Part shown: positions 17,706 to 34,465 of the stretch, piece by piece | Numbering within the stretch: position 1 is the first letter of the stretch | Layout of the letters: each line of letters starts with the position of its first letter | Assembly: GCF_009727055.1 (NCBI RefSeq) | Contig: NC_052351.1 | Span: 59,542,860 to 59,606,859 of the forward strand | Origin: Benincasa hispida | Lineage: Eukaryota > Streptophyta > Magnoliopsida > Cucurbitales > Cucurbitaceae | Direction of reading: 5' to 3' | DNA length: 64,000 bases | The notes under the pieces: model-generated | The model's database searches: none | What the model was told of the DNA's origin: nothing | What the model saw: the letters and a program-made list of their open reading frames with translations, nothing else | Made by a program: the position numbers and the translations under genes

Positions 17706-18720
17706 TTGGGGAACAAATGATGACTAAATTGACTCAAGAACTTGTTGTCAATGTGAGGTCCATGCAAGATAATCCTTAAGAGAACTTTGGGTAGAATGTT
17801 TGAAGGCCCTGAGAGCCACAACATTTCCAGGGACAGCTGATCCTGCAGATGTAGAGAAATGGATGGAAATGATAGAATAGTTTTTTTGGAGTAATGAGAT
17901 GCCTAAATGATAGGAAGGTGGGACTTATCACTTTCTTACTACAAAGAGGGGTAGATGACTAGTGGTATATGACTCAGTTATGCCACGAAGACATAGTGAT
18001 TAGTTGGGAGGAATTTAGAAGATTCTTCTATGACAAGTTTTATCCAAGGTCATTCCGTGATATGAAACAGAATGAATTTTTTAGGTTAGTATAGGTAATG
18101 ATGACGGTGGAAAAATATGAGAAAAAATATACTAAATTGTCCAATTATGTTGTTTCAATAATTGAAGTTGAGAGGGACAAATGTAAAAGATTTAAAGATG
18201 GTTTGAGGAGAAGATTCATACACCAGTTACTGCCAATGCTGAATGGAATAACTTTTCCAGTTAGTAATGAGGGTCGAGAAGAGTCTATCTGAGAAGAAAA
18301 TAGAGAAAAAAGTTGCAAGGAATGTTCGTGCAACTACCTCTTCAAGCCAACTGCATGATAGATCCAATAGGAGGTTTACTCTTGGGATTTCGAACAAATG
18401 AAGCTTTAAACGAAGATATTGCGATTCTTCCAACTTTAGATGAGGAAGATGAGGGGATTTAGACTTTGAATAGTTCAAGATGACCAATAGGGTCCACAGA
18501 AGGTTCATAGGTTGAATCATCTAGTGGTGTTTTAGTAGGAGTTGAGAAGAGACATTTATATGCAGAGTATGGCAGGAGTCATTGGGGTCCGTGCTTTAGG
18601 AAGAGTAATATATGTTTTAATTGTGGATAATCTGGACACTTCCACAAAGATTGTCCTCAATTACAATGAGAGGGAAATAATAATCAAAGTACCAATTTTT
18701 AGACAATGGATCAGCCACTT
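17706..18720 (+). pseudogene. Ty3/gypsy element G1: gag
   Basis: Gag of a chromovirus-type gypsy element, missing its N-terminus and its 5' LTR. Recognisable parts: FYDKFYPRSFRDMKQNEFF (about 18030-18085), then the 'MTVEKYEKKYTKLS' block (18101-18140), and a zinc knuckle CFNCG-stop-SGHFHKDC at about 18617-18657 in which a TAA stop replaces the residue between CG and SGH. Multiple stops and frame changes make it non-coding. The reading resumes in protease downstream. Confidence 0.75.
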
Positions 18721-18746
18721 GTGCCATTGCTAAGCAGAAGGCACCA

Positions 18747-19158
18747 ATGGATCGTCCTCGGGCTCAAGGGAAGATTTTTACAATGACCCGACAGGAAGTT
18801 GATGAAACACCTAATGTTGTGACTGGTACGTTATTTATTTTTTATAAACCTACTCATGTATTGATTGATCCTGGTGCTAAATATTCTTTTATGTCTTGTT
18901 TGTTTGCTAAGGGTATTAATAAAAAGTTAGAATGTCTGCCGGAAATGTAGTACACCATTGGGTGTAACATTTGTGTCCAAAGATGTATATAGAAAATGTA
19001 TAGTAAGAGTTAATGGAAGTGATTTGTCTGCTGATTTAATACCCCTAGATATCCAGGAGTTTGATGTAATTTTAGGGATGAATTTATTGTCAAAGTATCA
19101 TGTCTCTTTAGATTGTCATCGAAAGGAGGTAGTGTTTAAACAACCTGGAAAAGCTTAA
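18747..19158 (+). pseudogene. Ty3/gypsy element G1: aspartic protease
   Basis: Two frames together cover the retropepsin domain: VLIDPGAKYSFMS (about 18858-18896), in which the active-site triad D-S/T-G has become D-P-G, and DVILGMNLLSKYHVSLDC (19063-19116), the conserved C-terminal block. A TAG stop at 18948-18950 separates them. The changed active site and the stop both indicate a dead enzyme. Confidence 0.75.
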
Positions 19159-19349
19159 GTGAATTTTAGAGGTGACAAATGAATCTTTTCCACCTATGTA
19201 ATCTCTATGTTGAAAGCAAGTAAGACGCTAAGGAATGGTTGCACTGCTTATCTCGCTCATGTGATAGATAAATAGGTTAATAAGAAGTTAAGATTAGAGG
19301 ATATACCAGCGGTATAGGAATTCCCAAATGATCTGTCAGGATTACCATC

Positions 19350-19949
19350 TAATAGTGAGATAGAGTTTGCCATTGATTTAGTACCTAGAACAAATCTGAT
19401 CTCTTAAGCACTATACGGAATGGCACCAACAAAACTGAAAGAGGTGAAAACTTAGTTACAAGAACTAGTGGATAAGGGTTATCTGACCCAATGTTTCTTC
19501 GTAGGGTGCATCAGTACTATTTGTGAAAAAGAAGGATGGTACACTAAGTTATATATTGATTACCGACAGCTAAATAAGGTAACAATACGTAATAAGTATC
19601 CTTTGCCACGAATTGATGACTTATTTGACCAACTAAAGGATGCCTCAGTGTTCTCCAAGATTGATTTACAATCAAGGTACCATCAGTTGAAAATTAAAGA
19701 GTCGGATATTCCAAAGACCGCATTTAGGACAAGATATGGGCATTATGAGTTCTTAGTAATGTCGTTTGGATTGACTAATGCACGTATGATATTCATGGAC
19801 TTGATGAATAGGATATTTCACTCTTTTCTAGACCAGTTTGTTATTGTATTTATTGATGATACAATGATTTACTCTAAGAGTAAAAAGGAATATGTCAAGC
19901 ATCTTAGAACAGTATTGCAAACATTACGAGATAAAAAAAAATTGTATGC
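19350..19949 (+). pseudogene. Ty3/gypsy element G1: reverse transcriptase, 5' part
   Basis: The open stretch 19468-19949 covers RT fingers and palm: [54 protein letters not shown] and FIDDTMIYS (19850-19876), the last replacing the usual F-I-D-D-I-L-I-Y-S but keeping both catalytic aspartates. The frame breaks off in LYA at 19943-19949, exactly where the TATGC duplication marks the insertion. RT resumes at 34466. Confidence 0.9.
19945..19949. repeat. Target-site duplication TATGC, left copy
   Basis: TATGC at 19945-19949 is repeated at 34466-34470. The intervening DNA begins TGATG and ends CATCA, as expected of LTR-element integration with a 5-bp staggered cut. Removing one copy and the insert makes the G1 RT reading continue (LYA then KFSKCEF). 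Confidence 0.9.
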
Positions 19950-20668
19950 TGATGCGTGGAAAATGAAGTAGATAAATATGCGTTCGTTATTCGTTCTCCA
20001 TGTGTCGCTGGTCATGCATTGAGCTAAGGGATGTGCAATATGCATCTAAGAATCTGTGCAATGACCATGCATTCTTGCCACAAGTTTTCTTGCTCTCTCG
20101 CCAAGTATAACGAGATCGCAAGTTTCTCGGGATGATCAAAGGTCAAACTTAGGGACTTGTATTAAATGTCATGTAGTAATGTGTTGCGGCGAAGAATAAA
20201 CGAATATTGAAGTTTAAGGGCTATGCGCTACTCCTACTCCTAACTAAACAGATTAAGCAATGGAAGTATAACTATGAAAGTTAGAGACACAACAACTGTT
20301 AACACGTAATAATATGTATGGAAAAAAAGATAAAATGGTGGAGGGGATGACTTCACCGCATCAATAAGCTTGATCTCAAGGGTAATCCTAGCTAACGCAA
20401 GTTATGCGATTATGCTATACACAATTGACTAAGACGCATGCGATGCATATGCGATAATGTCGATAGGACTTATGTCTAAGTCTCTATTCTTGTTCACGTG
20501 CTCCCACACATAAACAAGGTGATCGCATACCACCGTATCCTACTTCTGAATGCATCGATGTGACCACATACTATCATATCCTATCTATAGGGTGCATGCG
20601 TTGTGTAATAGCAAACAGAACTTATTCCTACGCCTCTATTCTTGCTTATGCGATCCAATCTGACTCTC
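19950..20668 (-). repeat. Family A LTR, outer edge copy (partial)
   Basis: Matches 32483-33190 in the right-hand copy nearly throughout ('gataaatatgcgttcgttattcg', 'aacgagatcgcaagtttct', 'cgatgcatatgcgata' and so on). It is the 3' LTR of the inserted minus-strand element. After about 719 bp it breaks at 20668, where B-type LTR sequence starting TGATAACTTG begins; the missing remainder probably corresponds to 30063-31299. Confidence 0.8.
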
Positions 20669-20810
20669 TGATAACTTGTAGAAATACAAGTTATTTATAT
20701 CATTTTATTTAAATTATGCGGCAAAAAGAAGGAAAAAGTTGCATCGACCGTAGAGAAATTGGCTTAGAAACGCAAAAGTTGTAAAGTGTCGTAAGCACAC
20801 CCGCTAACCC
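20669..20810 (+). repeat. Family B LTR start (plus orientation), fragment
   Basis: Begins TGATAACTTGTAGAAATACAAG, the reverse complement of the end of the LTR at 23090-23133. About 140 bp are present before the sequence stops at the adapter. The final words 'cacccgctaaccc' resemble the reverse complement of about 22990-23005. The copy is therefore B-type in the opposite orientation to 21381-23133. Confidence 0.6.
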
Positions 20811-20848
20811 CTGTCTCTTATACACATCTAGATGTGTATAAGAGACAG
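20811..20848. other. Nextera mate-pair junction adapter (assembly artefact)
   Basis: The 38 bases are exactly CTGTCTCTTATACACATCT (20811-20829) followed by its reverse complement AGATGTGTATAAGAGACAG (20830-20848). Each half is the 19-bp Tn5 transposase mosaic end. The two ends joined outward with no base between is the known circularisation-junction adapter of Nextera mate-pair libraries. There is no transposase gene, no resistance gene and no 9-bp duplication, so it is not a natural Tn5 copy. It marks a point where two separate genomic pieces were ligated in the library and kept in the assembly. Confidence 0.97.
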
Positions 20849-21340
20849 ATCCAGGGAGAAAGACGAGACAAGACCGAAAGGGAAGTCTCTGGAGCAAGAA
20901 ATTCATTCCCATTCCCGAAGAGAAGCTCTGTGCAAAGATCACTTCTACTTGGAAAACAAGCCTGAGAAGGAAGTTCTCTACCACATTCCTCCTACACGCC
21001 GGCAAGCAAATCGTCTCCGATCGGGATCCGTGTCAAGACATTGACACGCTTTCCTTATTTGTTCTCACTTTCTATTCATTAACTATGTTCATCTCTAATA
21101 TTTCATTCATTATCTGTAACAAATGCTTATCTCTAGATTTTAATATCATTATTATATTCATCCTCATTTCCCTGTTCTCCACCGTACATTCATCATCCAT
21201 TTCCTTCACCATGTGTAACTAATTCCCCAGGGAAAAGGAAAGGATTAAGCGAGTAAGTTAATCCTTGATGAAGAAATTAGCCGAGTTTAGCTAACGCATG
21301 CTCAACGGCATCTTCACCTATGAGAGCAGAAGTGAAGATG
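20849..21340 (+). repeat. Family B LTR piece in inverted orientation
   Basis: Reverse complement of about 22010-22490: the pieces agacgagacaag (compare cttgtctcgtct at 22470), gcaagcaaatcgtctcc (compare ggagatctgcttg at 22327) and gagagcagaagtgaagatg (compare catcttcacttctgctctc at 22016) appear in reverse order. It begins directly at the adapter and diverges at about 21340. About 490 bp of the LTR that should lie between 20810 and 20849 is absent, as expected if the join is artificial. Confidence 0.75.
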
Positions 21341-21380
21341 TTATTTGATGCTAAAAGGATATGCTATGCTATGCTTGAAA

Positions 21381-23133
21381 TGATGCGATACTACTACTAG
21401 ATATGCGTTAATTATGAATGTTCTTGTAGTATGCCATGTATTATCACAAGTTTTATTACGTTGGAACCAAGTGTAATTCCACCGCAAGTTTCTCAGTGTG
21501 ATCCAAGGTCGAACACAGGGACTGTTTGAGGTTATTGTGGTATGTTTATGATACATGCGACCAAGTTTTTCAATTTAATAAAAGTATAGTTTGTGCAAGT
21601 ATATAAAAATTACGATAAAGTAAAGGAAAGCAGTAAAAAATGCGATAATAAAATAAGTACGGTAAACCTAAGCTAGATGATACAAGATACAGGCTTCATG
21701 ATACAAGATGTTGGGGTCTAGGCTGGCTGTAAAGGTTATACAAAGAACATAGAATGCGGCGGCAAGTCTTATGTACAACACAGAAAGAGAAAGATAACTA
21801 ATATAAATAGTGCAAGTTTCTTAATTACGTTGAAGCCATAAGTACGGTTCCATTTTTCTCTTGGCGTACACCTTTCAGTGATCGGCCGCACTCCCATATG
21901 TCTGTGGTGAAACAGAGACGAACGTAATGAACGCAAGGTTTTTTTCCATGTCTGGAAGTACTACTCACTTTAATTAACGCATTCTTCTAACCTTCTCTCG
22001 ATAGATCAGAATGGCATCTTCACTTCTGCTCTCACAGATAAAGATGTCGCCTAGCATGCCTTAGCTTAACGCATTTATCTCTTTAACACGAGTTAAGTAT
22101 AATTCATATTAACTACCAAGGGATTGGAAAGACATCATGGAGAAAGTGATTAACGGAGGAACGGAAGTAGATAGAAAATGGGGTATGAAAGCAATCGAAA
22201 CATTTAATATATCTATCAAGCGTTTGATACATGGTGTAAATGAATAGATAAAGGAGGTGAAATACAATGATGAAAAGAGATAGAACAGATACAAACAAGC
22301 GCCAACATCTTGGCACCGATTCGGGTGGAGATCTGCTTGTCGGATTGGATGGATCAGATGGATGGATGAACTTCCCTCTCAGGCTTGCTCAACCGATAAC
22401 AGGGTTCTCAACACAGAGCTTCTTGGCGGGTATTTGGCAGAATAGAACTGAGACTCACCTCTCAGCCTTGTCTCGTCTTCTTCCCGGATTTCTTCAGTTA
22501 AACACTCAATTCAGCCTTTCCTCTCAACACTTTAGCAGCAATTAGCCCCGTATCCAATAGCATATTTTTTCCTGAAATCTATGGGGTATTTATAGGTGAA
22601 GATCTTTGACTCTGGCCTTGTGCTCCCCACTTGTTGTTATAGAAATTTCGAAGATAGAGAGATATTATTCCTTCTATTATGCAATCAGACCATCAATTCT
22701 ACACAATCGTTAGTTGTACACGTGTCTCAATCCTCCGCTTTTGCGTTGCTCAGCTGCATCTTTCAATCGTGAGTTCGCATGTGATGTTGTTTTAATTACC
22801 GCATGCGGTTGAAAGTCAGCTTTGGATCAACTGTCGCATTGCGCCATCATTGTGTTAATCGTCTCTTCATTGTTGGTTAACGGGCGCATTGTGACATAGA
22901 TGCGTTGATCAGTTCTTCTTGAGCCTTGAGCACAAGCGGTGACTCGGTTCCCTACAAAACAAAGTAAAATCTCCTCTTCTTCCATCTTAAAGATGTTAGT
23001 GGGTGTAATTGCAATAATTTATAATTATTGTAATTTTGAGCTAATTTTCATACAATTGGCGCATATTTATTCTCTTTTGGCTGCAATATCTAGATAAGAC
23101 AGTATAAATAACTTATATTTCTACAAGTTATCA
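21381..23133 (-). repeat. Family B LTR, complete copy (minus)
   Basis: 1753 bp with ends TGATGCGATACT...ACAAGTTATCA (TGAT/ATCA). On the minus strand it follows a purine-rich tract AAATTTGGGGGTG (plus 23134-23146), making it a 3' LTR. A TATA-like box is at plus 22585-22598 (minus cacctataaatacc). Related partial copies are at 29811-30056 and 63613-64000. No coding content. Confidence 0.8.
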
Positions 23134-24334
23134 CACCCCCAAATTTAGATATATGCTTGTCCTCAAGCATATCTTCTACTTAGGCAATAAAGCTTAATTC
23201 CTATCCTATATTTTGCATCGATTGGTTGCTCTGAATGTTACACTTAGGCACATTACTTGACATCGCAACTTCTTTTCTATCCTTGCTAATTCTTAACAAA
23301 TCCCTATTTTATTCTTCTATATAACAAAATTCTGCTAAAAAATGCTTTTCTCATTTTTCACAATAGAATGTTTACCTCTTCTTTGTCAAAATAACTCGAC
23401 ATATCTATATACGGTGAGCAAAACTTTGCATCATTTGTTAGAGATGGTTGATCATGGTTACACTCTTCGTTTTGGCTTGTCCCCACGGGTGTGCGAACAT
23501 CCAACTACTGTTGTGTGTCAATTTCAATTTTAACTCATGAATTTGAGAGGAGTTGTCTCTTGCATTTATTTTTCTTATTCCATATTGCGTTGTTCTTGGA
23601 AACCCACCTTCGTTTTGGCTTGCTCCTACGGGTTTCATACGAACATCCAACTACGAGTAGGCTCCTTTCACAACTAAACTCTTATCAGGTTTGGAATATT
23701 TCTAAGGATTTCCCTTGTGCTGACATTGGAGCTTTGTATGGAAATTTTTTTTTTAATTTTTTTTAATCTTATAATTTTTTATTTTTGTAATGAAAATGAA
23801 CGCATTTTCTTAAATACTGCATATTCTGATCTTATCTACTTAGACCTTCCCCACCCCCAAATTTAAAGATGAGCAAGGTCCTCATTACGTTGTTTGGATA
23901 GACTAGACAAATACTTAGAAGAAAAGTTCCAAGAAAAAGGTTTGAGCAAAACTTTGAAAGATAAAAGGTAAAGTACTGCTAAACTAAGAATTAACTAAGT
24001 GTTAGTCAGAATTTACAAAGTATGGGAAATGTTTCTAAGTATAAACATATATTACATCATAGCAACGCAATGAAGAATACAAAAGTGAAAGATTGAAAAT
24101 ATCGCAATTATTGACAAAGGATGATAAAGAAAAAGGCACAGGCAAAAATGGAGTGAATATATACTCATTATATTGAATATTAACAAAGTATACAACAAAT
24201 TACAAATTAACGCAATAAAAAAATTTTGCTTGTACAAGAATCAAAGAATTGATTAACTTATAAAATAATAAATGAATTTAAAAAAATACATAATGGTCGC
24301 ATAGAAGGGAAAAAAAATATAGGAGGATTATTGT
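23134..24334 (-). mobile_element. Family B element: 3' non-coding internal region
   Basis: Begins at the polypurine tract and runs to the end of the damaged ORF. On the plus strand it holds two copies of a motif TTCG-TTTTGGCTTG-CCC-ACGGG-...-CGAACATCCAACTAC at 23466-23508 and 23609-23654, 143 bp apart. The same pair with the same spacing occurs in the family A element (31627 and 31770). Conserved start words 'cacccccaaatttaga-----gcttgtcctcaagcat' are also shared with A (31300-31345). No protein recognised. Confidence 0.65.
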
Positions 24335-32482: not shown

Positions 32483-34465
32483 TGGAGATCTAGAAAATGG
32501 AGTAAATAAATATGCGTTCATTGTTCGTTCTCCATGCGTTACTGGTCATGCATTGGGCTAAAGGATGTGCAATATGCGTCTAAGAATCTATGTGTCCTGC
32601 CACAAGTTTTCTTGCTCTCTTGCCAAATATAACGAGATCGTAAGTTTCTTGGGGTGATTCGAGGTCGAATTCAGGGACTTGTAGCTAAATGTCATGTAGT
32701 AATGTGTTGCAGCGAAGAATAAAAGAATATTAAAGTTTAAGGGGCTATACGCTACTCCTACTCCTAACTAAATAGATTAAGCAATGGAAGTATGACTATG
32801 AGAGTTAGAGACATGACAACTGTTAACGCATAATAAGATGTATGGAAAAATAGAGAAAATGGTGGAGGGGATGACTTCACCGCATTAATAAGCTTGATCG
32901 CAAGGGTAACCCCAGCCAACACAAGTTATGCGATTATGCCATACATAATTGACTAAGATACATGCGATGCATATGCGATAGTGTCGATAGGACTTATGTC
33001 TAAGTCTCTATTCTTGCTCACGTGCTCCCACACATAAACAAGGTGACCGCACACCACCATATCCTCCTTCTGGACGTATGCGATGTGACCACGTACAATC
33101 ATATCCTATCTATAGGGTGCATGCACTGTGTAATAGCAAACAGAACTTATTCCTAAGCCTCTATTCTTGCTTATGCGATCCAATCTGACTCTCCTAAGCC
33201 TAGATTTGGTTTTTAGACTACTCTCTCAAGTATGCCCAAATGATGAATGATGCACTCATAAGACAAGGTAATCACATAAAGCATGGTTGACATAAGATTA
33301 TTCCTATCCCTAGGAACACTGCTTACTTCGCTTAGTGAGTTCAACTACATACCTCTCAAGCAGTTAGACACTGCTGATTTTGCTCATAGACAAGCATTGC
33401 GACCGCTCATGGACAAACGTTGCTACAGCCTCACACTAAGCAAAGAGGATTCTTTCACAACACTCGTGCAACGCACACCTCTCGGTGGTTTGCTACATGC
33501 TTCATATATCTATGCCACATGATTAAGTATGCGATACTCTAGCAATCTTACTTAGTCGTTGCAATGAAAGTAAAGGATGATAAGAAGAGGTAAATGAAGA
33601 TGGAATCGAAGGAGATAAAGAAATGCATTGATCACAAAATGTATTAATGTCTTAAGCCACAATGTAATACAATACAGAGATAGAAGAGAGATGGAGAGCC
33701 AGATGGGCAATGTCTTGTTCCCATCATATGTGTGTCAAGGCTGCCGGTGGTGCCATGGATGGGCGGTGGAGTAGTCTCTCTCGAGATCTATCTCTGACGA
33801 AGCTCCGGTCGTCACTTGGAATGGTTGGAGGAATGAAGAACTCCTAGAGAATTTCTTCTCACGCTTTTGTTTTGAATCACAAGGATCTACCCTAAGGCAG
33901 AAGCTCGGATGATTTGAAGTTGGGCTCTAAGGCTTCTATTTATAGAGCTCGATCACCGACAGCATTAATGGTCCTTCTCTGAATTTCTGCTGCTAACGGC
34001 GAGATGGACCTGCTCTGAATCTTTGCTACTAACGGCATGGTAGGTGAAATGTCAACATCACCTTTTGATACTCCCAAGGTATACGTTCGTGCTTGGTTTC
34101 CAAAGTACCATCGCATTCCACCACCCTTGCGCTCATCCCTCTATTATGGTTATTACTCTATAGTCGCAACCTTTATGCGGTGGACGCATGTGGTTAATGG
34201 CCACAACATCCATGTGTCTATCATATGTGATCGCCTCTGCGATAGTGAGATTCACCACGTGCGATCGATTCCTACGATAGCTACAAAAATAGACAATTGG
34301 ATGCAAAAGAACGCATAATAATGGGTTAGCCGAGATTTTCAATGCCGATCGACGCAAGCTCACTTTTCTCATGAATTCTTAGTATAGTCACCGCATATTC
34401 TACTTATCAGCCCTCATAATTCTAAATAAAAGGCCTATAATATTGAGCATTTCTGCCCTTCATCA
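32483..34465 (-). repeat. Family A LTR, complete copy (5' LTR, minus)
   Basis: About 1983 bp; minus strand begins TGATGAAGGGCAG and the outer end abuts the TATGC duplication. It matches 19950-20668 in its left 700 bp and 30063-31299 in its right 1240 bp. A TATA-like box with flank (minus gagctctataaatag, plus 33935-33950) recurs in the plus-strand copy at 59591-59604. The inner edge (32483) is less certain than the outer one. Confidence 0.8.
33935..33950 (-). promoter_or_regulatory. Predicted TATA box of family A LTR
   Basis: Minus strand GAGCTCTATAAATAGAAGCC. The same GAGCTCTATAAATA- or GGCTCTATAAATA-type word is present in related LTRs at 59591-59604 (+) and 38136-38148 (+), although surrounding sequence has diverged. 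Conservation across copies and the TATAAATA core support an LTR promoter for polymerase II. Confidence 0.6.

Follow-up and report, generated by a model that had tools for sequence, protein, structure and literature searches.

The closest described counterpart of the sequence analyzed here is the junction adapter of Nextera mate-pair libraries. As described for NextClip, this junction pairs a forward 19-bp adaptor with its reverse complement, the two being joined to each other (PMC3928519). The pair results from circularization of the library fragments (PMC3928519, PMC4074385), and descriptions of both NextClip and Skewer treat its removal by trimming as obligatory (PMC3928519, PMC4074385). A second counterpart is a biotin-labelled ring adapter for circularized libraries, which is printed with exactly the same 38-mer but is circularized onto sonicated DNA rather than being added by tagmentation (PMC7357533). 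The 19-bp end itself has its source in the natural ends of Tn5/IS50 (PMC3347997). Untrimmed adapters likewise harm PacBio HiFi assemblies, as described with HiFiAdapterFilt, although both the adapter and the platform differ in that case (PMC8864876).

The window, by which we mean the whole stretch of DNA that was analyzed, comprises 64 kb (G000:C3:59542860-59606859, where C3 is a contig label). Three features concern the adapter directly:

20811..20829, forward strand: the 19-bp Tn5 mosaic end, first half of the junction adapter (exact match)
20830..20848, reverse strand: second half of the junction adapter, the reverse complement of the same 19 bp (exact match)
20709..21005, reverse strand: spurious open reading frame through the adapter, which is read as SVSYTHLDVYKRQ / VSYTHLDVYKRQ

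The 19-mer CTGTCTCTTATACACATCT is present at 20811-20829 (forward) and 20830-20848 (reverse) with zero mismatches in each half, and these two are the only matches in the 64 kb when as many as three mismatches are allowed (shuffle mean, 0.01; two matches in one shuffle, 0 of 100 shuffles). The two arms of 19 nt are 100% complementary and abut without a spacer, such that the 38 bp form a perfect palindrome, as is characteristic of a mate-pair junction adapter. An earlier note on this DNA had described the 38 bp as the Tn5 mosaic end and its exact reverse complement, and this description is borne out to the last base. No other parts of the adapter, and none of the pieces of Illumina adapters compared with it, were found in the window. 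The peptide VSYTHLDVYKRQ is a known sign of contamination; a literature search for it returned no paper.

The adapter is spread throughout the assembly (G000; 912,946,352 bases in 1,791 contigs), which appears to have had mate-pair libraries in its making. The exact 38-mer occurs 9,991 times (about 11 per Mb), compared with no occurrence of the reversed control. With up to two mismatches, the 19-mer is found in 11,214 forward and 11,208 reverse copies (control, 7 and 12). The number of exact 38-mers is a minimum because the adapter also occurs in a damaged state or as one half alone, as seen at L138:3091, L148:3001, L157:4843, L174:3001, and L175:3001. Given these numbers and the design in the literature, the claim of the earlier note that this is a mate-pair adapter can be accepted. 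We conclude that positions 20811-20848 are a man-made mate-pair junction adapter and no natural element, an artefact of a known kind. The ring adapter is identical over the 38 bases (PMC7357533), and the window cannot tell such an origin from tagmentation.

The assembly appears to be the reference of wax gourd (Benincasa hispida) B227, whose size is given as 912.95 Mb (PMC9905507). The paper on its construction names ALLPATHS-LG for the assembly and PBJelly for gap filling, lists five mate-pair libraries (2 and 8 kb), and reports 2,197 scaffolds, with 397 anchored to 12 groups, versus the 1,791 contigs here (PMC6856369). The words ‘Nextera’ and ‘adapter’ occur zero times in the main text of that paper (PMC6856369). 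Among the listed titles and openings of abstracts, a coverage outside which supplements and most subscription papers fall, there was no prior report of adapter copies in wax gourd B227.

One alternative is that the 38 bp are the remnant of a natural Tn5/IS50 element or a genuine palindromic insertion. The sole point in its favor is the resemblance to transposon ends, and we consider it improbable in the extreme. Specifically, the mosaic end is described as a chimera, constructed and optimized for in vitro work, that combines outside-end with inside-end nucleotides (PMC3347997), and the natural Tn5 end sequences come no closer in the window than three mismatches, at the adapter itself. There is no room for a transposase between the two halves, which are separated by zero bases, and no transposase-like open reading frame of this kind (at least 80 aa, between 14 and 28 kb) is apparent by eye. 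A 9-bp duplication is also absent around the window adapter, which is flanked by CGCTAACCC on the left and ATCCAGGGA on the right, and it is found around none of 48 junctions. Thus the rejection of a Tn5/IS50 copy in the earlier note stands. A 9-bp overlap from the same cut was likewise considered and set aside (0 of 48 plant junctions and 1 of 147 bacterial loci). L058:7830, the single bacterial junction flanked by an exact 9-bp repeat, possibly joins two fragments of one Tn5 cut or reflects chance.

Identical 38-mers in unrelated draft genomes also argue against a natural element. Contigs of bacterial genomes carry the exact 38-mer in at least 120 stretches, and by our own count 17 organisms are named among the 80 bacterial matches listed. 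It is present as well in seven stretches of viral contigs and in five public plasmid records (H1-H5), with no feature under the match in their incomplete gene table. It was not found in complete E. coli genomes or in a phage collection.

The surroundings of the adapter in the window consist of repeats:

20060..20668, forward strand: older repeat hosting the LTR-like repeat; its other copy in the window continues uninterrupted at 33194
20669..20810, forward strand: left flank, the first 142 bp of the LTR-like repeat, starting TGATAACTTG; copies genome-wide at 78-96% identity
20849..21345, forward strand: right flank, a later part of the LTR-like repeat, lying about 480 bp after the left flank in other copies
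22368..23133, reverse strand: diverged relative of the repeat within the window, with both flanks likewise ordered and a distance of about 503 bp between them

We infer that the repeat around the adapter is an LTR. Nested LTR-like repeats lie within positions 18000-24000 of the window, and the open reading frame at 19468-19971 is presumably a piece of a Ty3/gypsy-like reverse transcriptase. The repeat start at 20669 looks like the outer end of the element because the older repeat, which abuts it, runs on in its other window copy at 33194 without the LTR-like repeat. This argument is somewhat weakened because the older repeat also lies beside the same repeat start at C12:56929152 (same strand) and C1:93467384 (opposite strand), and because a copy of it at C10:4691496 extends 27 bases into the LTR-like repeat. 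No target duplication can be read at the window junction because the window copy breaks off at 21345; the older repeat, which would be expected to resume there, is picked up again only at 33189.

A search of the whole genome with positions 20560-21200 yielded 8,668 first-look candidates, of which 40 were scored. Besides the window, the right part is present in 39 copies; for 35 of them a left part to pair with lies within 5 kb, and the other four lack a partner. In every one of the 35 pairs, both parts are on the same strand, left before right, with 272-520 bp between them (median, 479 bp; one pair is extrapolated, its left match ending early). Three fetched copies have gaps of 480, 482, and 481 bp, one of them also with a more distant pair at 1911, and the copy at C7:35455162 has its own adapter in the gap, which measures 520 bp versus the commonest value of 481. 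The earlier note had stated that the true distance between the joined fragments is set by library size, and these uniform pairs do not support it at this junction. Its further warning that sequence order beside the adapter is unreliable fares differently in its two parts. The sequence of the join is indeed unreliable, with about 0.48 kb probably missing, whereas the order and strand look right at the level of the repeat. On the basis of these sequence comparisons, it is most likely that about 0.48 kb of LTR-like repeat has given way to the adapter, and not that ends 2 or 8 kb apart have been joined.

The rival reading, which follows the proposal of the earlier note, is a plain mate-pair chimera, in which the contig follows one circularized molecule and the right flank would lie one library length (2 or 8 kb) upstream of its left counterpart. 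The adapter is by design a circularization junction (PMC7357533, PMC3928519), and libraries of both lengths were made for B227 (PMC6856369). However, the right flank is found 272-520 bp downstream in all 35 paired copies, rather than one library length upstream, as judged from other copies of the repeat (35 paired of 39) and not from reads of this locus. Positive distances cannot come from circularizing a single fragment, which always places the right flank upstream of the left. More favorable to a chimera are the close pairs of copies on the same contig, of which three of four are about 8 kb apart (on C5, C7, and C4; the pair on C11 is separated by about 3.3 kb). The pairs at about 8 kb resemble the two LTRs of one element, and a circle from LTR to LTR could mimic the observed order. 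Such a two-LTR circle, which these pairs would suit with an 8-kb library, was rejected for the window, where the left flank appears to start at an outer end that no purine tract precedes. At L176 and L178, a purine-rich tract (TTTGGGGGTG and TTTGAGGGTA, respectively) is found just before the same repeat start. All told, we judge a plain chimera very unlikely.

The same comparison was extended to a sample of 48 junctions, made up of the window and the full set of 47 exact junctions that C1 carries in its first 5.87 Mb; three half-adapter places of the 19-mer list lie outside the fetched set. Copies at other loci place 27 of the 48, of which 14 are missing bases (positive values) and 13 have overlapping flanks (negative values):

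Window junction: missing, +480 to +482
L137: missing, +102 to +152
L138: missing, +16
L143: missing, +68 to +117 in 21 full-span copies (three partial-range copies left out) and +83 to +224 in 11 split copies
L144: missing, two copies at about +0.9 and +1.3 kb, of which one has its own adapters (derived by hand from tables)
L152: missing, median +212 (147 to 944), 20 of 26 copies paired
L153: missing, +116 and +146
L154: missing, +259 and +297
L155, second junction: missing, +555 (one other locus)
L158: missing, +1 or +2
L159: missing, +268 to +308
L161: missing, mostly +310 to +319
L166, second junction: missing, +681 and +815
L171: missing, 18 of 21 copies at +9 to +24 and three at +77, +52, and -30 (derived by hand from tables)
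L139: overlap, -210 to -215
L141 and L142: overlap, -19
L145: overlap, -10
L148: overlap, -122 (one other locus)
L155, first junction: overlap, -514 (one other locus)
L156: overlap, -77 (one other locus)
L157: overlap, -110 (one other locus)
L160: overlap, -178
L164, two junctions: overlap, about -157 and -56
L166, first junction: overlap, -659 to -761
L167: overlap, -17 to -21

By the commonest or nearest value, placed junctions range from -761 to +1255 (-0.8 to +1.3 kb), a range read with methods that favor short distances (loci of about 6 kb, a 5-kb limit on the nearest pair, and a 1.5-kb limit on same-strand pairs). Many placed junctions have further values from second copies within the same locus, and some have pairs on opposite strands. 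At a few loci, a distant pair is the only one (L159 in L166, -2044; L161 in L174, -5101; the first junction of L166 in L161, +1526). The flanks of L136 are linked by no scored copy, so that the join there may be a wrong one; L136 is one of ten junctions left unplaced, together with the first of L150, L162, two in L165, L168, two in L170, and two in L173.

The remaining 11 junctions can be read from their own duplicated flanks alone (L140, L146, L147, L149, three in L150, L151, L163, L169, and L172). The same sequence of 61-296 bp stands directly on both sides at 11 of the 48 junctions (at most 4% mismatch; three of them in L150) compared with 0 of 1,608 random breakpoints. The same duplicated ends occur at 20 of 147 bacterial junctions, a count that has no random-breakpoint control. 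Within L150:3001-3539, four adapters alternate head to tail with an identical unit of 129 bp, an arrangement that looks like a loop in the assembly graph through the palindrome.

The strongest single test is provided by L152, where the adapter splits a transposon that carries the 11 bases AATTTGGGGTA on both sides. The surrounding repeat has an empty site in 13 of 14 listed copies, and 11 of these 13 overlap by exactly 11 bases (the others by 12 and 33). Because the 11-base target repeat is present on both sides and empty sites exist elsewhere, the two halves most likely represent one insertion at one place, welded in order with about 0.2 kb lacking.

We hold that, very probably, the palindrome of an untrimmed mate-pair adapter has acted as a universal overlap that welds neighboring contig ends, with about 0.48 kb replaced in the window. 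Mate-pair circularization adapters would have been left untrimmed in the reads. Since the palindrome is perfect, reads and contigs whose ends reach into the adapter would all overlap one another, irrespective of strand. Two neighboring contig ends that both ran into it could thus be welded through it while contigs were being extended or gaps closed, and in the window this weld would replace about 0.48 kb of the LTR-like repeat. We infer that the join was made in this manner and not by a single odd molecule, since about half of the placed junctions miss bases and the target repeat of L152 is intact, neither of which fits a single circle. Specifically, the 14 positive values among the 27 placed junctions are impossible for one circle without a second copy of the repeat. 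The 13 overlaps could instead be tiny circles, and the inner steps at L155 (-514) and L166 (-659 to -761), of 0.5-0.8 kb, do run in the order that a circularized short fragment gives, which counts in favor of a plain chimera.

A variant of the weld account is that the join is local in repeat coordinates but connects two different copies of the repeat, and its odds overlap with those of the favored explanation. The repeat is common, as the 8,668 first-look candidates (40 scored) indicate. In addition, 4 of the 26 other copies listed for the transposon split in L152 (C1:11450557, C3:41980202, C1:27267031, and C11:45527151) have an adapter that follows at roughly the same base, as if a single patch with the adapter in it had served for several repeat copies. 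On the other side, the halves of L152 share one target repeat, so that this weld most likely joins a single copy. We regard a join between different copies as unlikely, and both halves in the window probably come from one copy of the repeat.

Unlike the usual Nextera junction, which is trimmed from reads, the adapter here resides within a finished assembly, and the measurable joins are local and not of library length. We consider it likely that the assembly, a chromosome-scale crop reference, suffered a systematic failure in which strand-blind, palindromic overlaps weld neighbors at about ten thousand places, mostly in order, deleting up to about 1.3 kb or duplicating up to a few hundred bases, with adapter patches reused in several repeat copies. 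The type of artefact is known; it is unusually widespread here, and the copy number is the only notable part.

The finding is a practical matter and not one of biology. Each of the 9,991 copies is a false stretch in what appears to be a crop reference, and the measurable ones lose or double bases. Genes or repeats that span a copy of the adapter will be wrong, and false open reading frames will bear the peptide VSYTHLDVYKRQ. If the welds mostly keep order, then checks of marker order would miss them. A single search of any assembly with the 38-mer reveals such adapter copies at once.
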